Shown here in pieces: positions 15,995-22,540 of a DNA stretch of 64,000 bases. The translations under genes were made by a program, and so were the position numbers. Under the pieces are notes generated by a model. It saw only the letters and a list, made by a program, of their open reading frames with translations, did no database searches and was not told where the DNA came from. Where the stretch lies: the NCBI GenBank assembly GCA_903873485.1, contig CAIQOO010000175.1, forward strand, positions 62,001 through 126,000, in the 5' to 3' direction. The stretch's first letter is position 1; each line of letters begins with the position of its first letter. This DNA is from an uncultured beta proteobacterium. Its GTDB lineage: Bacteria > Pseudomonadota > Gammaproteobacteria > Burkholderiales > Burkholderiaceae_C.

Positions 15995-18283
15995 ATGAAA
16001 AACCTCGATGCCTTTAAAACCCACGGCGACATCATCTGGAACATTGCCAACCTGCTGCGCGGCCCCTACCGCCCGCCGCAGTACCGAAGGGTGATGATTC
16101 CGCTGACGGTTTTGCGACGCCTGGACTGCGTTTTGGAAGCCTCCAAACAGGCGGTCATCAAGCATCACAAACAACTCAAAGAACAAACCGACAAGGACGG
16201 CAAGACCAAGTACCAGGTGGAAGCCATCGAAAAAATGGTCAACCACCAATTTGGCCTGTCGTTCTACAACACCAGCGAATTCACCTTTGAATCCCTGCTG
16301 GGTGACCCCGACAAACTGGCCGCCAACCTGGCCAACTACATGGCGGGTTTCTCCAGCCGTGCCCGCAAGATCATCGAAAAATTCAAGTTTGACGAAGAGA
16401 TTGAAAAACTCGATGAAGCCAACCGCCTGTTTGACGTGGTCAAGCAAATCGCTGCCGTCGATCTGCACCCCAAGACCATCCCCAATATCGCCATGGGCTA
16501 TTTGTTTGAAGACCTAGTGCGCCGCTTTAACGAGCAGGCCAATGAAGAGGCGGGCGACCACTTCACCCCGCGTGAAGTCATCAAACTCATGGTCAACCTG
16601 CTGTTCACCCATGATGACCTGGTCTATCGCAAAGCCAAACTCATCAAGATTTACGACCCGACCTGCGGCACCGGCGGCATGTTGTCAGAGTCTGAAAAGG
16701 TCATCAAAGACCCGGAAACCGGCCTGAACCCCAGTGCCGATGTGCGCCTGTTCGGTCAGGAATACAACCCCGAGTCCTTCGCCATTTGCGGCTCAGACCT
16801 GATGATCAAGGGCGAAGAAGTGCAAAACATCGTCTTTGGCGACACGCTGGGCACCGGCAAGATCAAGGATGGCGTGGCCGATGGCGACGGCCACCCCGGC
16901 GAGCGTTTTCACTTCATGCTGGCGAATCCACCGTTTGGCGTGGAATGGAAACCCGAAAAAGACTTTGTCACCAAAGAGCATGACACTTTTGGTTTCAAGG
17001 GCCGTTTTGGCCCTGGCCTGCCGCGCATCAATGACGGTGCGCTGTTGTTTTTGCTGCACATGATGTCAAAAATGCAGCCTGCACTCCGGCAAGGCGGCGA
17101 AGGCTCGCGCATCGCCATTGTCTTCAACGGCTCGCCATTGTTCACCGGCGATGCTGGCAGTGGCGAGAGCAACATCCGCCGCTGGATCATCGAGCACGAC
17201 ATGCTCGAAGCAGTCATCGGCCTACCCGACCAGTTGTTTTACAACACCGGCATTTACACATACGTTTGGATCGTGACCAACCGCAAGACTGCCCAGCGCG
17301 CTGGCAAAGTGCAGCTCATTAACGGATGCGACTTTGCCTGGAAGATGAAGAAAAGCCTGGGCGACAAGCGCAAACGCATGGGCGACGGCACGGACGGCAC
17401 CCCCGACCACATTGCTGCCATTACTCGCCTGTATGGCGACTTTGGCCATGAGGTGCGCCAAACCGTGGCCGACATTCAAACCAACATCGACCCCAAGCGC
17501 GATCAAACCAAGCGCCTGCTTGTCAGCAAGGTGTTTGACAACCAGGATTTCGGTTTTCTCAAGATCACCGTGGAACGCCCGCTGCGGCTGAATTTCTGCG
17601 TTACCCCCGAGCGCATCACCCGCGTGCAGGTCACCGGAGCGTTTGCTGACCTGGTGCTGTCGCGCAAACGCAAGGACAAGGCCCGGGTCAAGGAAGAAAT
17701 CCTGCTGGGGGAAGCAGCTCAAGCCGCCATTCTGGAGGTACTCAAAGCCATGTTGCCAGGTTTTGCCCATGGCGAACTCGTCAAAGATCGCAGCGTTTTT
17801 GAGTTGCAACTAACAAAAGCCTTTGCCACCGCAGGTATCGACCTCGATGCCAAGCTGAAAACCGCTTTGCTTTGCGCCGGTGCCCTGGGTGAAAAAGACC
17901 CCAGCGCCGAAGTCTGCTGGAACAAAAAGGGCGAGTCTGAGCCCGACCCCGACCTGCGCGACACTGAAAACGTGCCGCTGCCGCCCGGCATTGCCCTGCC
18001 CCTGCCGCTGGACTATGAAGGCAAAAAGAACAAGGGCAAGATCGATATTGACCCGCTATTGGCCCTGGTGGAAAACCATTGCGAAGCCTATCTGGCCGCT
18101 GAAGTGCTGCCCTACCGGGCTGATGCCTGGATAGACCACAGCAAAACCAAGGTAGGTTACGAGATACCGTTTAACCGCCACTTTTACGAATATCAGCCAC
18201 CCCGCCCGCTGGAAACGATTGAAGCCGACATCCTGGCGCTGGAAAAAGACATCATGGCGATGCTGAAGGACGTGACAGCATGA
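15995..18283 (+). CDS. hsdM: Type I restriction-modification system, methyltransferase subunit HsdM
   Basis: The modification subunit N6-methylates adenine in the sequence chosen by HsdS. The product has 762 residues, clearly longer than E. coli HsdM (about 530) because of an extended C-terminal part. An HsdM N-terminal helical domain (ILWNIANLLRG-like start, PLTVLRRLDCVLE) precedes the SAM motif DPTCGTGG at 221-228 and the catalytic NPPF at 311-314. Its TGA overlaps the ATG of the following rhuM remnant by four bases. Order hsdM, rhuM remnant, hsdS, ATPase, hsdR, all co-directional, marks a type I operon with extra genes. Confidence 0.95.
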   Translation: MKNLDAFKTHGDIIWNIANLLRGPYRPPQYRRVMIPLTVLRRLDCVLEASKQAVIKHHKQLKEQTDKDGKTKYQVEAIEKMVNHQFGLSFYNTSEFTFESLLGDPDKLAANLANYMAGFSSRARKIIEKFKFDEEIEKLDEANRLFDVVKQIAAVDLHPKTIPNIAMGYLFEDLVRRFNEQANEEAGDHFTPREVIKLMVNLLFTHDDLVYRKAKLIKIYDPTCGTGGMLSESEKVIKDPETGLNPSADVRLFGQEYNPESFAICGSDLMIKGEEVQNIVFGDTLGTGKIKDGVADGDGHPGERFHFMLANPPFGVEWKPEKDFVTKEHDTFGFKGRFGPGLPRINDGALLFLLHMMSKMQPALRQGGEGSRIAIVFNGSPLFTGDAGSGESNIRRWIIEHDMLEAVIGLPDQLFYNTGIYTYVWIVTNRKTAQRAGKVQLINGCDFAWKMKKSLGDKRKRMGDGTDGTPDHIAAITRLYGDFGHEVRQTVADIQTNIDPKRDQTKRLLVSKVFDNQDFGFLKITVERPLRLNFCVTPERITRVQVTGAFADLVLSRKRKDKARVKEEILLGEAAQAAILEVLKAMLPGFAHGELVKDRSVFELQLTKAFATAGIDLDAKLKTALLCAGALGEKDPSAEVCWNKKGESEPDPDLRDTENVPLPPGIALPLPLDYEGKKNKGKIDIDPLLALVENHCEAYLAAEVLPYRADAWIDHSKTKVGYEIPFNRHFYEYQPPRPLETIEADILALEKDIMAMLKDVTA

Positions 18284-18573
18284 GCAACCCACTTCAACCC
18301 GCCTTGCCGGACGGCGAATTTATTCTTTACCAAACCGAGGATGGCCGCACCCGGTTGGAAGTTCGCTTTCAGGGAAACAACGTCTGGTTGTCACTCAATC
18401 AACTGGCTGACCTGTTTCAGCGTGACAAGTCTGTGATCTCCCGCCATATCAAAAACGCGTTTGAAGAAGGTGAGTTGCAGCAAGCTCGAACTGTTGCGAA
18501 ATCTGCAACAGTTCAAAGCGAGGGGGGCAAGCAGGTCACGCGATTCATCGAGTTCTATAACCTCGATGTCATC

Positions 18574-18669
18574 TATCGTGATTCCAGCGAGGCCGACTAT
18601 CGTCATTCCCGCGAACCCAATCATCGTCATTCCAGCGAACCCAACTATCGTCATTCCCGCGAAGGCGGG
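18574..18669 (+). repeat. 24-bp tandem array (4 units) left of the GIY-YIG gene
   Basis: Units begin at 18574, 18598, 18622 and 18646, each built on TATCGTCATTCCCGCGAACC with small changes. The first unit starts exactly where RhuM similarity stops. The last unit runs into a palindromic repeat arm. Confidence 0.85.
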
Positions 18670-18675
18670 AATCCA
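18650..18675 (+). repeat. Palindromic repeat arm, left side
   Basis: A 26-bp GTCATTCCCGCGAA..GCGGGAATCCA arm, itself an imperfect hairpin (TTCCCGC/GCGGGAA). It is the widespread REP-like repeat whose translation gives IVIPAKAGIQ. The arm right of the GIY-YIG gene at 19119-19144 differs at only two positions. Confidence 0.8.
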
Positions 18676-18691
18676 GCCGCGACTCCAACCC

Positions 18692-18982
18692 ATGAAGCAC
18701 CCTGTCGTTTACATCCTTGCAAGCCAGCGAAATGGCACCTTATATATCGGTGTCACCAGCGACATCGTCAAGCGTATTTGGGAGCACAAAAACGATGTTG
18801 TCGAAAGCTTCACCCAAAAATACAAAGTCCATCAACTGGTCTACTTCGAGCAATACACAGACATGCTTGCCGCGATCACGCGCGAAAAACAGCTCAAAAA
18901 ATGGAATCGTTCATGGAAATTGGCGTTGATCGAAAGGACCAACCCCGAGTGGCGCGATCTTTGGAGCGACATTGCGGGCTGA
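18692..18982 (+). CDS. Small GIY-YIG endonuclease-family protein
   Basis: A 96-residue single-domain GIY-YIG protein. The signature is VYI at residues 6-8 and YIG at 18-20, with the expected Arg-28, Glu-31 and metal-binding Glu-65 (REKQLKKW), so the active site looks intact. The C-terminal ERTNPEWRDLW is typical of the small stand-alone group found in many betaproteobacteria. The frame is open further upstream through the tandem repeats, but the ATG at 18692 fits the domain start. It lies inside the broken rhuM gene in a different frame and is flanked on both sides by tandem arrays ending in near-identical palindromic arms. Function unknown; an association with the repeats is inferred from position. 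Confidence 0.88.
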   Translation: MKHPVVYILASQRNGTLYIGVTSDIVKRIWEHKNDVVESFTQKYKVHQLVYFEQYTDMLAAITREKQLKKWNRSWKLALIERTNPEWRDLWSDIAG

Positions 18983-19031
18983 GTCTTCGGTGCTGCACAT
19001 TGTCCACAAGCTTATTTCAGCCAAGTCAAAG

Positions 19032-19130
19032 CTCGCGAAGATTCCCGCAACGCAAAAACCTGTTGTTGCTCCCGTCGCGCAAAAACCCGTTGTCATCCCC
19101 GTTGCTGGAAAACCTGTTGTCATTCTCGCG
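19032..19130 (+). repeat. 27-bp tandem array right of the GIY-YIG gene
   Basis: Degenerate 27-bp units begin at 19032, 19059, 19086 and 19113 with the core CCTGTTGTCATTCCCG-like followed by CGCAAAAA. As on the left flank, the last unit merges with a palindromic arm. Confidence 0.75.
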
Positions 19131-19178
19131 AATGCGGGAATCCAGAACTGCATGGATTCCCGCATTCGCGGGAATGAC
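19119..19178. repeat. Full inverted repeat, right side of the cassette
   Basis: Two 26-bp arms (19119-19144 and 19153-19178) are reverse complements with one mismatch, separated by the 8-bp spacer GAACTGCA. The left arm matches the single arm at 18650-18675. The transcript would form a strong hairpin just before the RhuM C-terminal remnant. Confidence 0.9.
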
Positions 19179-19370
19179 GGGGGTAACGGTGTACCACGCT
19201 GGCCACGTCTCTGCGGCCCACGCCAAAGTCAAAGCCGAACTGGAATACGCCAACTATCGCAAGCAACAAGACTTGCTGCCGTGTGCGGTGGATGCGGACT
19301 TTGAACGGGTGGCGAACGAGTTGAAAGCTTTGCCGCCATTGAAGCGGGTGACACGAAAAGGGAGTGGGAA

Positions 19371-20714
19371 GTGAACAACCAGGCGGCTTCCGGCACCAGC
19401 GAAGCAAATACACCGCATGAGTCAGATATGCCAACGGGCTGGATCGTTCGTCGCTTGAAATTTCTGGCCACCTGTAACGACGAAGCGCTACCGGAAACAA
19501 CCGACCCCGAATTTGAAATGGAGTATGTGGATATTTCCAGCGTCAATCTCATAGACGGGATTACCAACATTGAAACGCTGACCTTCGAGAAAGCACCTTC
19601 CCGTGCCAGACGAGTCGTAAAAGACGGTGACACCATCGTTTCCACGGTGCGAACCTATCTGAAAGCAATCGCGCCCATTGAGTTGCCGCCAAGGAACATG
19701 GTTGTTTCGACGGGCTTTGCTGTGATTCGGGCGCTTGAATTCATGGATAGCAAATACTTGGGGTACGCACTTCAAAATGTTGCGTTCATTGATGCAGTGG
19801 TCGCCAATTCAACCGGTGTCAGCTATCCCGCAATCAATCCGACAGCACTGGTTTGTTTATCCATGTCGTACCCCGAAGACAAGGCAACACAGCAGCAAGT
19901 CGCAGCCTTCCTGGACTGGAAAACCAGCCAGATCGACGCGCTGATCGCCAAGAAACAAGAGTTGCTGCAAAAGCTCAAAGAAAAGCGCCTGGCCGTCATC
20001 ACCCAAGCCGTTACCAAGGGCCTCAATCCTGATGCGCCGATGCTTGATTCCGGCATCGCTTGGATAGGTAAAGTGCCAGAACATTGGATCGTCAAGCGTC
20101 TGAAGTTCATCGCACGAATTGGTAATGGCTCCACGCCCAACAGAGAAGATTCTTCGTATTGGGACGCTGGCAATTACCCATGGCTCAACAGCTCGGTCGT
20201 AAATCAAGAATCTGTGACCGAAGCCGACCAGTTTGTTACGCCGCTTGCGTTGTCAGAATGTCACTTGCCACGTATCGCCCCGCCAGCCGTGCTGGTTGGT
20301 ATCACGGGGCAAGGCAAGACGCGGGGAATGGCCACCACACTATTGTTTGAAGCCACTATCAACCAACATCTGGCCTACGTTAAACCCGACGGATCAAAAG
20401 CTGTGGTTGGCTTTCTTCGGCGTGTGTTTGATATGGCTTACTCGCATTTGCGCAGTGAAAGCGAGAACGGCGGAAGCACCAAGGGGGCAATCACTTGCGA
20501 GCAGATTGCAGAATTACCTGTGCCTATTCCTCCAATAGCGGAGCAAACCGCCATTACAGCCTCTGTTGATCAAGCCATAGTCAGAATCGACCGCATGGCA
20601 GATAACGCCCAGTCCGCCATCACCCGCCTCACCGAATACCGCACCGCCCTGATCACCGCAGCCACCACCGGCAAAATCGACGTGCGCCAAGTCAAAATTC
20701 CCGCTTCCTCCTGA
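19371..20714 (+). CDS. hsdS: Type I restriction-modification system, specificity subunit HsdS
   Basis: The DNA-recognition subunit that directs HsdM and HsdR. The product has 447 residues with two target-recognition domains: the first introduced by GWIVRRLKFLATCN, the second by KVPEHWIVKRLKFIARIGNG. They are separated by the central conserved helix (KTSQIDALIAKKQELLQKLK) and the second is followed by the distal conserved helix (DQAIVRIDRMADNAQSAITR). It starts with GTG that overlaps the stop of the rhuM remnant, implying translation coupled to the preceding frame. The recognition sequence cannot be predicted from reading. Confidence 0.95.
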   Translation: MNNQAASGTSEANTPHESDMPTGWIVRRLKFLATCNDEALPETTDPEFEMEYVDISSVNLIDGITNIETLTFEKAPSRARRVVKDGDTIVSTVRTYLKAIAPIELPPRNMVVSTGFAVIRALEFMDSKYLGYALQNVAFIDAVVANSTGVSYPAINPTALVCLSMSYPEDKATQQQVAAFLDWKTSQIDALIAKKQELLQKLKEKRLAVITQAVTKGLNPDAPMLDSGIAWIGKVPEHWIVKRLKFIARIGNGSTPNREDSSYWDAGNYPWLNSSVVNQESVTEADQFVTPLALSECHLPRIAPPAVLVGITGQGKTRGMATTLLFEATINQHLAYVKPDGSKAVVGFLRRVFDMAYSHLRSESENGGSTKGAITCEQIAELPVPIPPIAEQTAITASVDQAIVRIDRMADNAQSAITRLTEYRTALITAATTGKIDVRQVKIPASS

Positions 20715-20728
20715 CGGAACCTCAAGCC

Positions 20729-22540
20729 ATGCGCCTGCTGCACTATCTGGAAATAGAGAACTTCAAATGCTTTGGCGACAGGCAGCGCATTGAACTTGAT
20801 CACCCCGCCGTGCTGATTGGCCCCAATAACTGCGGCAAAACCAGCGCCATTCAGGCGCTGGCGCTGTGGTCGCAGGCGGTCAAGACCTGGTATGACGTAC
20901 GCCGGGACTCCAACGCCAAAGAGCGCACCGCCACGGCACTGAACCGGCTCAACATAGTGGCGGTGCCGGTGCGGCGCACCCGATTTTTCTGGCACAACAC
21001 GAATGTGCGTGCAGGCACCAAAGACATTGCGCTCACCCTCACCGTCGGTATTGAATTCCGGGGGCAGCTTATCGCCTTGCCGATGCGCTTTACCAACAAG
21101 GGCGATGAATTGGTCTATTGCAAACCCGATGATGCGGTGGTGGCCAATCTGGAGTTTTTGCAGTACGCGGCACTGATCAACGTGGCGTTGCTCTACCCGA
21201 TGTCTGGGCTGGAAACCGAAGAGCCGATTTTGCAGCCTGGCCGCATTGATGTCTTGCTGGGCCATGGCCAGACGGCACAGGTGCTGCGCAACCTGTGTCT
21301 GATGGTGGCCAAAGACAACCCCGATGACTGGAAACGCATCGTGGCGCTGATGCGTCGGCTGTTCGATGTGACCCTGGATACGCCACAGGAAACCACCCGT
21401 GGCGCGATCGAGTTGCGCTACAAGCAGCCTGGCGTGCGGGATGCCCTGGACGTGTCTTCCAGCGGGCGCGGCTTTCAGCAAATGCTGCTGATTTTTGCCT
21501 ATCTGTACTCCCACAAGCGCAGTGTGCTGCTGGTGGACGAGCCAGATGCGCACCTGGAAATCCTGCGGCAAAAGCAGGTCTATGTGCTGCTGCGCGACAT
21601 TGCGGCAGACAACCAGTCGCAGGTAGTGATGGTGACGCACTCCGAGGTGATTCTGGAAGAGGCGCTGGACTACAACCTGACCTTGCTGATGGATGGCAAG
21701 GCGGACGATCTGGCGCGCAAGACCGACATTCGCAACAGCCTGAAGCACTTTGGCACCGACCATTACATCAAGGCCCGCGAGCGCGGGTATGTGCTGTATG
21801 TCGAGGGCGGCACCGATGTGGACATGCTGCGCGCCCTGGCCGAGCGGCTCAAACACCCGGTAGCTGCGCTTTGGGATGAACGCATCAATTCGTTCTATGT
21901 GCAAAACAATTACCCCGACAAGTCGCTCGATAGCGAACTGGAGCGGGTCGAAGGCGGCTTTGGCGTGACACCACGCGATCACTTCAAGGGCCTGAGCAGC
22001 TTGCTGCCACAACTCAAAGGCCTGGCGCTGCTGGACAACGATGGGCGCAACCGACAGGGTGCGATGGAAGGCAATTTGCAGTTGGCGTACTGGAAACGTT
22101 ACGAGGCTGAAAATTACTTTGTCACCCCCACTGTCTTGCGGCGCTACGCTGTAGAGCACTTTGCCGAAATCGAATTGTTTGGCGGCTTTCCAACGGAAAT
22201 TGACAACGTGCTGGATGCCTTGCTGCTTGAGCAGGTGTTTGACGGTACACAGGCAGACTTTGCGGCCTGGAAGCAGTCGCCGCCAGAAGTGGTGCGCATC
22301 GTCTGGGAGGCCAAGACACAGCGCCTCAAACTCAGCACATTGGCCGAAGAGTTCTTCAGGCGCTTAAGCAGCCGCGTGGGTGGCGGCATGCTCCTCAAGA
22401 AAGGCCAGTTGCACCGTTTGGTAGCCGTGGTTGAACCCAAATCCATTCCGGCAGAAGTCAGCGAAAAGCTGGATTTGCTGCATCAGCTTTTCAAATCAGC
22501 GGCGCTGCCTTCGGAAGTTTTTGAGCCGACTTCAGCCTGA
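20729..22540 (+). CDS. OLD-like AAA ATPase with C-terminal TOPRIM domain
   Basis: A 603-residue protein. An ABC-type ATPase domain comes first, with Walker A GPNNCGKT at 31-38, a signature-like SSGRGFQQML, Walker B LLVDEPDAHLE with Asp-270/Glu-271, and a switch His in MVTHSE. A TOPRIM-type nuclease domain follows, with Glu-359 (YVEGGTD) and the DND pair Asp-436/Asp-438. This is the OLD-family layout: ATPase plus metal-dependent nuclease. It lies 14 bp after hsdS and 40 bp before hsdR, so it is co-transcribed with the restriction genes. Extra ATPase genes inside hsd operons (rlo-type) are known, and several take part in phage defence. A defence role here is inferred. Confidence 0.85.
   Translation: MRLLHYLEIENFKCFGDRQRIELDHPAVLIGPNNCGKTSAIQALALWSQAVKTWYDVRRDSNAKERTATALNRLNIVAVPVRRTRFFWHNTNVRAGTKDIALTLTVGIEFRGQLIALPMRFTNKGDELVYCKPDDAVVANLEFLQYAALINVALLYPMSGLETEEPILQPGRIDVLLGHGQTAQVLRNLCLMVAKDNPDDWKRIVALMRRLFDVTLDTPQETTRGAIELRYKQPGVRDALDVSSSGRGFQQMLLIFAYLYSHKRSVLLVDEPDAHLEILRQKQVYVLLRDIAADNQSQVVMVTHSEVILEEALDYNLTLLMDGKADDLARKTDIRNSLKHFGTDHYIKARERGYVLYVEGGTDVDMLRALAERLKHPVAALWDERINSFYVQNNYPDKSLDSELERVEGGFGVTPRDHFKGLSSLLPQLKGLALLDNDGRNRQGAMEGNLQLAYWKRYEAENYFVTPTVLRRYAVEHFAEIELFGGFPTEIDNVLDALLLEQVFDGTQADFAAWKQSPPEVVRIVWEAKTQRLKLSTLAEEFFRRLSSRVGGGMLLKKGQLHRLVAVVEPKSIPAEVSEKLDLLHQLFKSAALPSEVFEPTSA

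Follow-up and report, generated by a model that had tools for sequence, protein, structure and literature searches.

A small GIY-YIG nuclease gene is lodged together with CGTC-tagged palindromic repeats in rhuM, apparently in place of the middle of that gene, in the 64,000-nucleotide stretch of beta-proteobacterial DNA analyzed here (the window), and relatives of the nuclease gene co-occur with such palindromes across many bacteria. A CGTC-type unit lies within 400 bp of the gene in 99 of 109 loci, whereas control windows taken from these loci at a distance of 1.6-2 kb contain one in 6 of 161 cases; the first count takes two sides per locus and the second single windows, and the like-for-like figure is 162 of 205 single complete 400-bp sides of the gene. 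The link between enzyme and repeats, which an earlier note on this DNA had drawn from position, is thus real. We consider the cassette to be probably an Ssn-type GIY-YIG gene with its cognate CGTC-1 REPs lodged in rhuM, a reading that would include cutting and dispersal of the repeats by the enzyme. This co-occurrence points to an enzyme for repeats that had been described as having none. What the earlier note had observed is confirmed, and its interpretation is partly supported.

The nuclease gene and its repeats in the rhuM locus

The nuclease gene is intact (ATG at 18692, stop codon at 18980-18982) and sits between arms and arrays, where the earlier note had placed it (Table 1). Its only Pfam match at E <= 0.01 is to GIY-YIG (PF01541, E 1.7e-15, score 57.5 bits, cut-off 22.6), which assigns the protein to the GIY-YIG superfamily and not to the HUH tyrosine transposases, and family-model searches matched the gene to no transposase family. 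The active site had been described as apparently complete. This holds for the tyrosine and glycine of YIG (Y18 and G20), R28 and E65, which together with H32 are 99-100% conserved in a 98-row alignment, but not for the isoleucine of YIG and Glu31, which fall below 90% conservation. The conserved Tyr/Gly, Arg and Glu residues are presumably catalytic.

The AlphaFold model, built from 33 aligned sequences, has a mean pLDDT of 91.9. Foldseek returned nothing for it at E <= 0.001; the best match was 1zg2 (TM 0.58, E 3e-3), followed by 1ywl and Slx1. UPF0213-type GIY-YIG proteins, the UvrC N-terminal domain and Slx1 share the fold with the window nuclease but differ widely from it in sequence, the best match reaching 24%. 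Sequence matches in the PDB to WD-40 designs were regarded as spurious. A defence function was set aside (no PADLOC match at 1e-5), as was a phage or viral carrier: exact peptide patterns found one relative in viral contigs, and all 11 phage records were below 60% identity.

Table 1. Features of the cassette and the surrounding operon, in window positions
Feature	Position	Strand	Evidence or remark
hsdM, type I RM (context)	15995..18283	+	
rhuM 5' part, residues 1-98	18280..18573	+	blastp to L107, L111 and L258 RhuM; PF13310 partial
24-bp tandem array of half-arm units	18573..18663	+	unit GTCATTCCAGCGAACCCAACTATC, 3.8 copies
CGTC-1 REP arm 1	18650..18675	+	CGTC tag from 18649, stem 8, loop 4, CCA tail
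Ssn-type GIY-YIG nuclease gene, 96 aa	18692..18982	+	PF01541; 98-row alignment; AlphaFold
27-bp tandem array	19043..19123	+	2.7-3 copies; runs into arm 2
CGTC-1 REP arm 2	19119..19144	+	TGTC tag, one stem mismatch
CGTC-1 REP arm 3	19153..19178	-	inverse orientation
Tail-to-tail doublet, arms 2 and 3	19119-19178		
rhuM 3' remnant, probable	19189..19374	+	frame of the 5' part; overlaps start of hsdS; weak C-terminal similarity
hsdS, type I RM (context)	19371..20714	+	

The arms, each 26 bp long, have the form GTCATTCCCGCGAANGCGGGAATCCA; one precedes the nuclease gene and two mutually inverse ones follow it. Arms 1 and 2 differ at 2 of 26 positions, exactly as first reported, and arm 3 is 96% complementary to arm 2; as single-stranded DNA, arms 2 and 3 form one long hairpin (z -10.7). 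Allowing up to three mismatches, the palindrome matches four times in the window, compared with 0.52 expected, and 1 of 100 shuffles reached four; three of the four matches are arms 1-3. In Di Nocera et al. 2013 (PMC3733652), which defines the CGTC REPs and identifies CGTC-1 of Neisseria with dRS3, the CGTC-1 class has a CGTC or TGTC tag, an 8-bp stem beginning with AT, a 4-nt loop and a CCA tail; the dRS3 pattern is also given in PMC3898611. Arms 1 and 3 fit this family exactly, and arm 2 fits it with a TGTC tag and one stem mismatch. Besides tag, stem, loop and tail, the arms share with the described repeats their dimers and their location inside genes, both already reported in PMC3733652. 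Two sub-threshold Rfam matches, both on the doublet, were taken as chance.

The arrays had been counted as 4 x 24 bp and 4 x 27 bp. The left one stands, at 3.8 copies with 83% matches, and the right one is reduced from four copies to 2.7 with 78% matches (19051-19123) or, on another count, to three, the others being 63-74% like the reference copy (19043-19123).

On the + strand, the gene order is hsdM, rhuM without its middle, the GIY-YIG gene in the gap, hsdS and an AAA ATPase gene. RhuM similarity extends to residue 98 (about 50% identity, E 1e-23 to 4e-24, blastp against L107, L111 and L258), with a partial PF13310 match below its cut-off (E 3.8e-5, 23.5 bits against 33.7). Codon 98 (18571-18573) is the last with RhuM similarity and the left array starts there, a coincidence that the earlier note had rightly pointed out. 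Beyond that, no RhuM likeness is seen before about residue 304-307, where a short C-terminal match sets in. This match is weak: shuffled sequences scored as high in Smith-Waterman alignments in 0 of 2000 cases for L107, 60 of 2000 for L258 and 35 of 2000 for L111, and tblastn of the 61 C-terminal residues gave only chance-level matches in 11 rhuM loci and in plasmids. All three alignments are placed at the RhuM C-terminus. Taking the C-terminal match at face value, the missing residues are 95-288 of L107 and 88-284 of L258, or about 195. L258 is a Rhodobacter plasmid with an uninterrupted hsdM-rhuM-hsdS operon in which rhuM overlaps hsdS, and the end of the window reading frame likewise overlaps hsdS by a few bases. 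Because similarity resumes at the C-terminus and the overlap with hsdS is as in L258, we think that about 195 rhuM residues have probably been lost and that the cassette stands in their place. The original placement inside rhuM is accordingly kept for the N-terminal part up to residue 98 and amended for the rest. The rhuM frame is stop-free from 18280 to 19374, across the cassette. We rejected this as a sign of selection and regard it as unremarkable, because 12 of 109 relatives likewise have this frame stop-free across their nuclease gene.

The earlier note had proposed a comparison with rhuM loci that lack the nuclease gene. A dRS3-type palindrome was found in none of 14 other rhuM loci (about 2-4 kb each) and a looser CGTC-type unit, one each, in three of them; this is weaker evidence because no close rhuM was found, the compared homologues (L258 among them) being 42-59% identical in the RhuM N-terminus. 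Elsewhere among the sampled genomes of the family, the best rhuM N-terminus reaches 59% identity. In a genome of the same genus (G231), hsdM and the second half of hsdS are 90% identical to those of the window, and the hsdM-hsdS distance of about 120 bp (by eye) leaves no space for rhuM.

The type I operon (15995-22540) carries exchangeable extra genes, which in the window are rhuM and the AAA ATPase gene; in G231 (L218), rhuM is absent and the first half of hsdS and the downstream gene differ from the window (by eye). Elsewhere in the window's genome, three arms, one single and one doublet, lie in frame inside pglX (C119, L009 1505-1676), within a 67-residue insert relative to the pglX of Polaromonas JS666. 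An MmeI-type gene (C11, L003 1527-1546) contains another in-frame arm, placed between its N-terminal and helical domains. Restriction or defence genes hold three arm sites of this genome: pglX, the MmeI-type gene and the type I operon.

Nuclease genes and CGTC-tagged palindromes across bacteria

A scan of one genome per species yielded at least 570 relatives of the nuclease gene, the best 80 of which were kept, favouring close relatives. The 109 loci comprise these 80, the window, 10 from a family survey, one viral contig and 17 records of a plasmid collection (17 of 33 records used). They are not independent (three Sphingobium strains, for example), and many are metagenome bins, so their phylum labels may carry binning errors. 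To count as a CGTC-type unit, a sequence had to carry a GTC tag, a perfect stem of 7-10 that starts with AT, AC, GT or GC, and a loop of 3-11.

Enrichment of the palindrome beside relatives, the check that the earlier note had put forward, is clear. An exact palindrome lies within 500 bp of the gene in 62 of 80 loci (the best 80 of at least 570 relatives), exact arms number 2.9-3.7 per kb in the nearest 200 bp but 0.015-0.09 per kb at distances above 1 kb, and two scrambled palindrome patterns gave no match around the same 80 loci. CGTC-type units flank the gene on both sides in 73 of the 109 loci. In the same test, the other tags were found in 3 (GTAG, the tag of REPtrons), 3 (CAG) and 12 (TAG) of 109 loci. 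The tail of the units is CCA in 261 and, next, CTA in 23. Other GIY-YIG genes differ from the Ssn type in this respect. Across 11 arm-bearing genomes, none of 19 non-Ssn GIY-YIG genes (from a GIY-YIG model search, 14 of them exceeding the family cut-off) has a unit within 400 bp or elsewhere in the fetched locus; the Ssn genes in the same genomes have a CGTC-type unit in 4 of 5 cases.

Among 200 genomes of the family, the gene (E <= 1e-20) was detected in 10, the canonical arm in 17 and both in 6, and the arm is present in 6 of the 10 genomes with the gene compared with 11 of the 190 without it (Fisher p 2.6e-5). Counting against a strict bond, 11 of the 17 arm-bearing genomes have no relative of the gene even at E 1e-3. 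Four of the 10 gene-bearing genomes lack the canonical arm, and 10 of the 109 loci have no CGTC unit by this definition.

The palindromes vary along with the enzyme. The canonical ATTCCC(N8)GGGAAT is found within 400 bp in 69 of 109 loci, and a different GTC-tagged unit is found in 30 of the remaining 40, which leaves 10 with neither. The variants include ATTCCGGC (L097), ATTGCGGC/G (L102 and L099), ACCCCCGA (L101), two with a stem of 9, ATCCTCGGG (L224-L226 and L233) and ATCCCAGGG (L121), and one with a 9-nt loop, ATCCCCGA (L056, L069 and L076). Stem 8 with loop 4, stem 8 with loop 5 and stem 9 with loop 5 match CGTC classes described in PMC3733652, and stem 8 with loop 9, the commonest unit in 8 of 109 loci, belongs to none of the four CGTC families defined there. 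Palindromes outside these families, with a GTC tag, stem 8 and a loop of 9-11, were seen at L053, L055, L056, L063, L069, L076, L078, L091, L045 and others. On a plasmid of Azospirillum lipoferum 4B (L223), the gene lies between sufB and sufC with ATCCCCGC units nearby. Canonical versus other arms require 21 changes on the gene tree (94 columns, 58 of 93 inner branches unresolved), against a shuffled mean of 25.5 and with values as low in 6 of 200 shuffles; arm class is clustered on the tree only loosely, which we count against our preferred explanation.

A relative from Neisseria gonorrhoeae (L116), 64% identical to the window protein and flanked by exact dRS3 palindromes, establishes kinship with Ssn, if L116 is Ssn, as we assume. 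In a 2025 Nature Communications paper by Chenal, Veyrier and colleagues, Ssn proteins are reported to be GIY-YIG nucleases specific for single-stranded DNA; that of N. meningitidis is said to act on the repeat NTS, and many homologues are said to have cognate sequences. We take the window nuclease to belong to this family of site-specific single-strand nucleases. The single-strand specificity that we ascribe to it would rest on that paper, by whose account the gene-repeat pair would also be of an already known kind. Like the Ssn family, the window has a small GIY-YIG protein with the same palindrome class alongside; it differs in that its gene is lodged in rhuM with half-site arrays and in that the activity, single-strand specificity and cut site of its enzyme are putative. 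In our partial coverage of the literature, we found no paper joining dRS3 with GIY-YIG and none linking REP elements with GIY-YIG. PMC3733652 describes CGTC REPs as apparently without a dedicated transposase, whereas nearly all nuclease relatives examined here have such units close by.

Doublets and half-site arrays

The palindromes take several forms: singlets, tail-to-tail doublets whose length hardly varies and, at some loci, tandem arrays of half-sites. Dispersed tail-to-tail doublets of the REPIN kind number 37 in G035 and 27 in G052. All 15 doublets aligned from each genome are tail-to-tail, with a length of 95-98 bp in 14 of 15 from G035 (one is 109 bp) and 148-150 bp in 15 of 15 from G052. 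Identity is 97% at the arm positions that the search pattern left free, a value somewhat inflated because the search demanded intact arm cores, and 42% (G035) and 69% (G052) in the spacers. In a third genome (G031), all three doublets examined are tail-to-tail and 65 bp each. Away from the gene, close arm pairs at the 80 loci (the best 80 of at least 570) comprise 28 tail-to-tail, 6 head-to-head and 9 direct pairs. Matches to the window doublet (76-91% identity over about 60 bp) are present in at least 8 other genomes of its genus, some of which hold several.

The earlier note had likened the layout to REP sequences with their RAYT transposases. The likeness is borne out: one enzyme gene, cognate palindromes alongside and dispersed inverted doublets. 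REPtrons, as PMC8266576 describes them, carry TnpA-REP (RAYT) in a mostly single-copy gene bordered by palindromes that are tagged at one end, with dispersed inverted doublets. They differ from the present loci in having an HUH transposase and a GTAG tag, where here we find a GIY-YIG nuclease and a CGTC tag.

Tandem arrays lie within 400 bp of the gene in 43 of 109 loci, compared with 4 of 161 control windows. Many of the 18-27 bp units, when rotated to best fit, read GTCAT[TC]C plus a species-specific filler. Runs in which at least three GTCAT[TC]C follow one another on the same strand at intervals of 14-32 bp are found within 500 bp in 14 of 109 loci and 1 of 293 control windows, and the left array of the window is one case of this recurring form. 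Half-site arrays may be traces of local duplication at the half-site that the enzyme would recognize. On a plasmid of Planktothrix agardhii (L120), a relative of the gene lies between genes annotated as MmeI and drmA (DISARM), with half-site arrays and no full CGTC unit by our definition.

Dispersal, host function and gene exchange

We infer that the enzyme drives the dispersal of the repeats. It would recognize the tag and the 5' stem (GTCATTCCCGC...) in single-stranded DNA and cut there; this DNA could be the lagging strand or enter the cell by transformation. Host enzymes would then join or repair the cut ends at other REPs, so that the repeats, and occasionally the gene between two repeats, would be copied to new places; arrays would arise by local duplication. 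It counts against this reading that GIY-YIG enzymes are not known to us to carry out strand transfer. This role would parallel the one proposed for TnpA-REP/RAYT on GTAG REPs, with different chemistry. It predicts for each species that a CGTC REP should be recognized by the nuclease whose gene adjoins it, and it would make the near-fixed doublet spacing and the half-site arrays measurable traces of enzyme action. A broader proposal, which we advance tentatively and do not ourselves expect to hold in full, is that Ssn-type nucleases are the dedicated enzymes of the whole CGTC-REP superfamily, and that such a 'GIY-REPtron' disperses doublets of set length by cutting single-stranded DNA, moves between species and constitutes a second, chemically independent origin of REPIN-like elements. 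If true, two unrelated enzyme folds independently became partners of REPs.

Somewhat more doubtful still is that the nuclease is a domesticated host factor acting to restrict or shape natural transformation, for which the arms would mark DNA and the enzyme would cut incoming single strands at them, while the repeats spread by other means (for example recombination or phage integrases). N. meningitidis Ssn is reportedly a modulator of transformation through its repeat, which favours this reading, as do the dRS3 palindromes beside the Neisseria relative and the family genomes that bear arms without the gene. PMC3898611 also names dRS3 as a target of a filamentous phage integrase. The host-factor reading leaves unexplained both the near-fixed length of doublets whose spacers differ and the tight placement of the arms around the gene.

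Orthologous sites with and without the cassette bear on a further alternative, homing, in which the nuclease cuts a gene-free repeat and the gene is copied in by repair between repeats. In the genus of G015, the gap between gltB and gltD is 16 bp in G146, 19 bp in G311 and 711 bp in G015, where the insert contains the nuclease gene and four arms; the genes flanking it match glutamate synthase domains. Gene and arms are thus jointly present or absent at one orthologous site. Among 16 other species, the gap measures 16-178 bp in 11 and contains no arm matching the search patterns, holds an unrelated gene in four and, in one (G304), has the nuclease gene and arms. The GIY-YIG fold, the location of the gene between units in most loci and the loss from rhuM, which could be a repair tract, are in keeping with homing, as is a sub-threshold match to the group I intron endonuclease model TIGR01453 (E 9e-4, score 19.3 bits, cut-off 56), which does not place the protein in that family; an Rfam scan of 18200-19500 detected no group I intron. 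Against it, the 11 short gltB-gltD gaps offer no arm of the searched patterns as a possible target, and the gene is single-copy in 9 of the 10 family genomes that bear it, though 6 of these genomes have further repeats. We regard homing as unlikely.

It is highly improbable that the two are bystanders, with REPs and small horizontally acquired genes both gathering in flexible regions: other genes do occupy gltB-gltD in related species and the window's genome has arms in pglX and an MmeI-type gene, but the control windows of the same loci and the other GIY-YIG genes are nearly or wholly free of CGTC units, and diverged enzymes adjoin other palindromes bearing the same tag.

For the nuclease-driven dispersal that we prefer, the gltB-gltD site gives a limited picture of movement. 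The ends of the insert do not coincide with the arms, which are inverted, and four of the 16 gaps hold unrelated genes; gain and loss of the gene are therefore explicable by ordinary gene exchange. The suggestion in the earlier note that the system may be mobile is supported as far as presence and absence at this site and the state of rhuM go; movement of the repeats, or of the gene itself, by the enzyme is what we infer beyond that. In plasmids, the surroundings of L121 and L118 matched as single flanks or as the occupied site (among 40 of 124 and 30 of 165 matches listed). The gltB-gltD gap in the genus of G015 is an exchange site. The unrelated genes in it are GST-like or OsmC-like, as judged by eye (L202-L217 set), and the gap in G304 holds another ORF besides the nuclease cassette.

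The gene tree suggests transfer of the gene between phyla. Nine phylum labels require 14 changes, against a shuffled mean of 13.9, in a test of low power, given that Pseudomonadota make up 62 of the 76 labelled rows, and on bins that may be mixed. Pseudomonadota taken alone are slightly clustered, with 11 changes, a shuffled mean of 13.1 and values as low in 26 of 500 shuffles.
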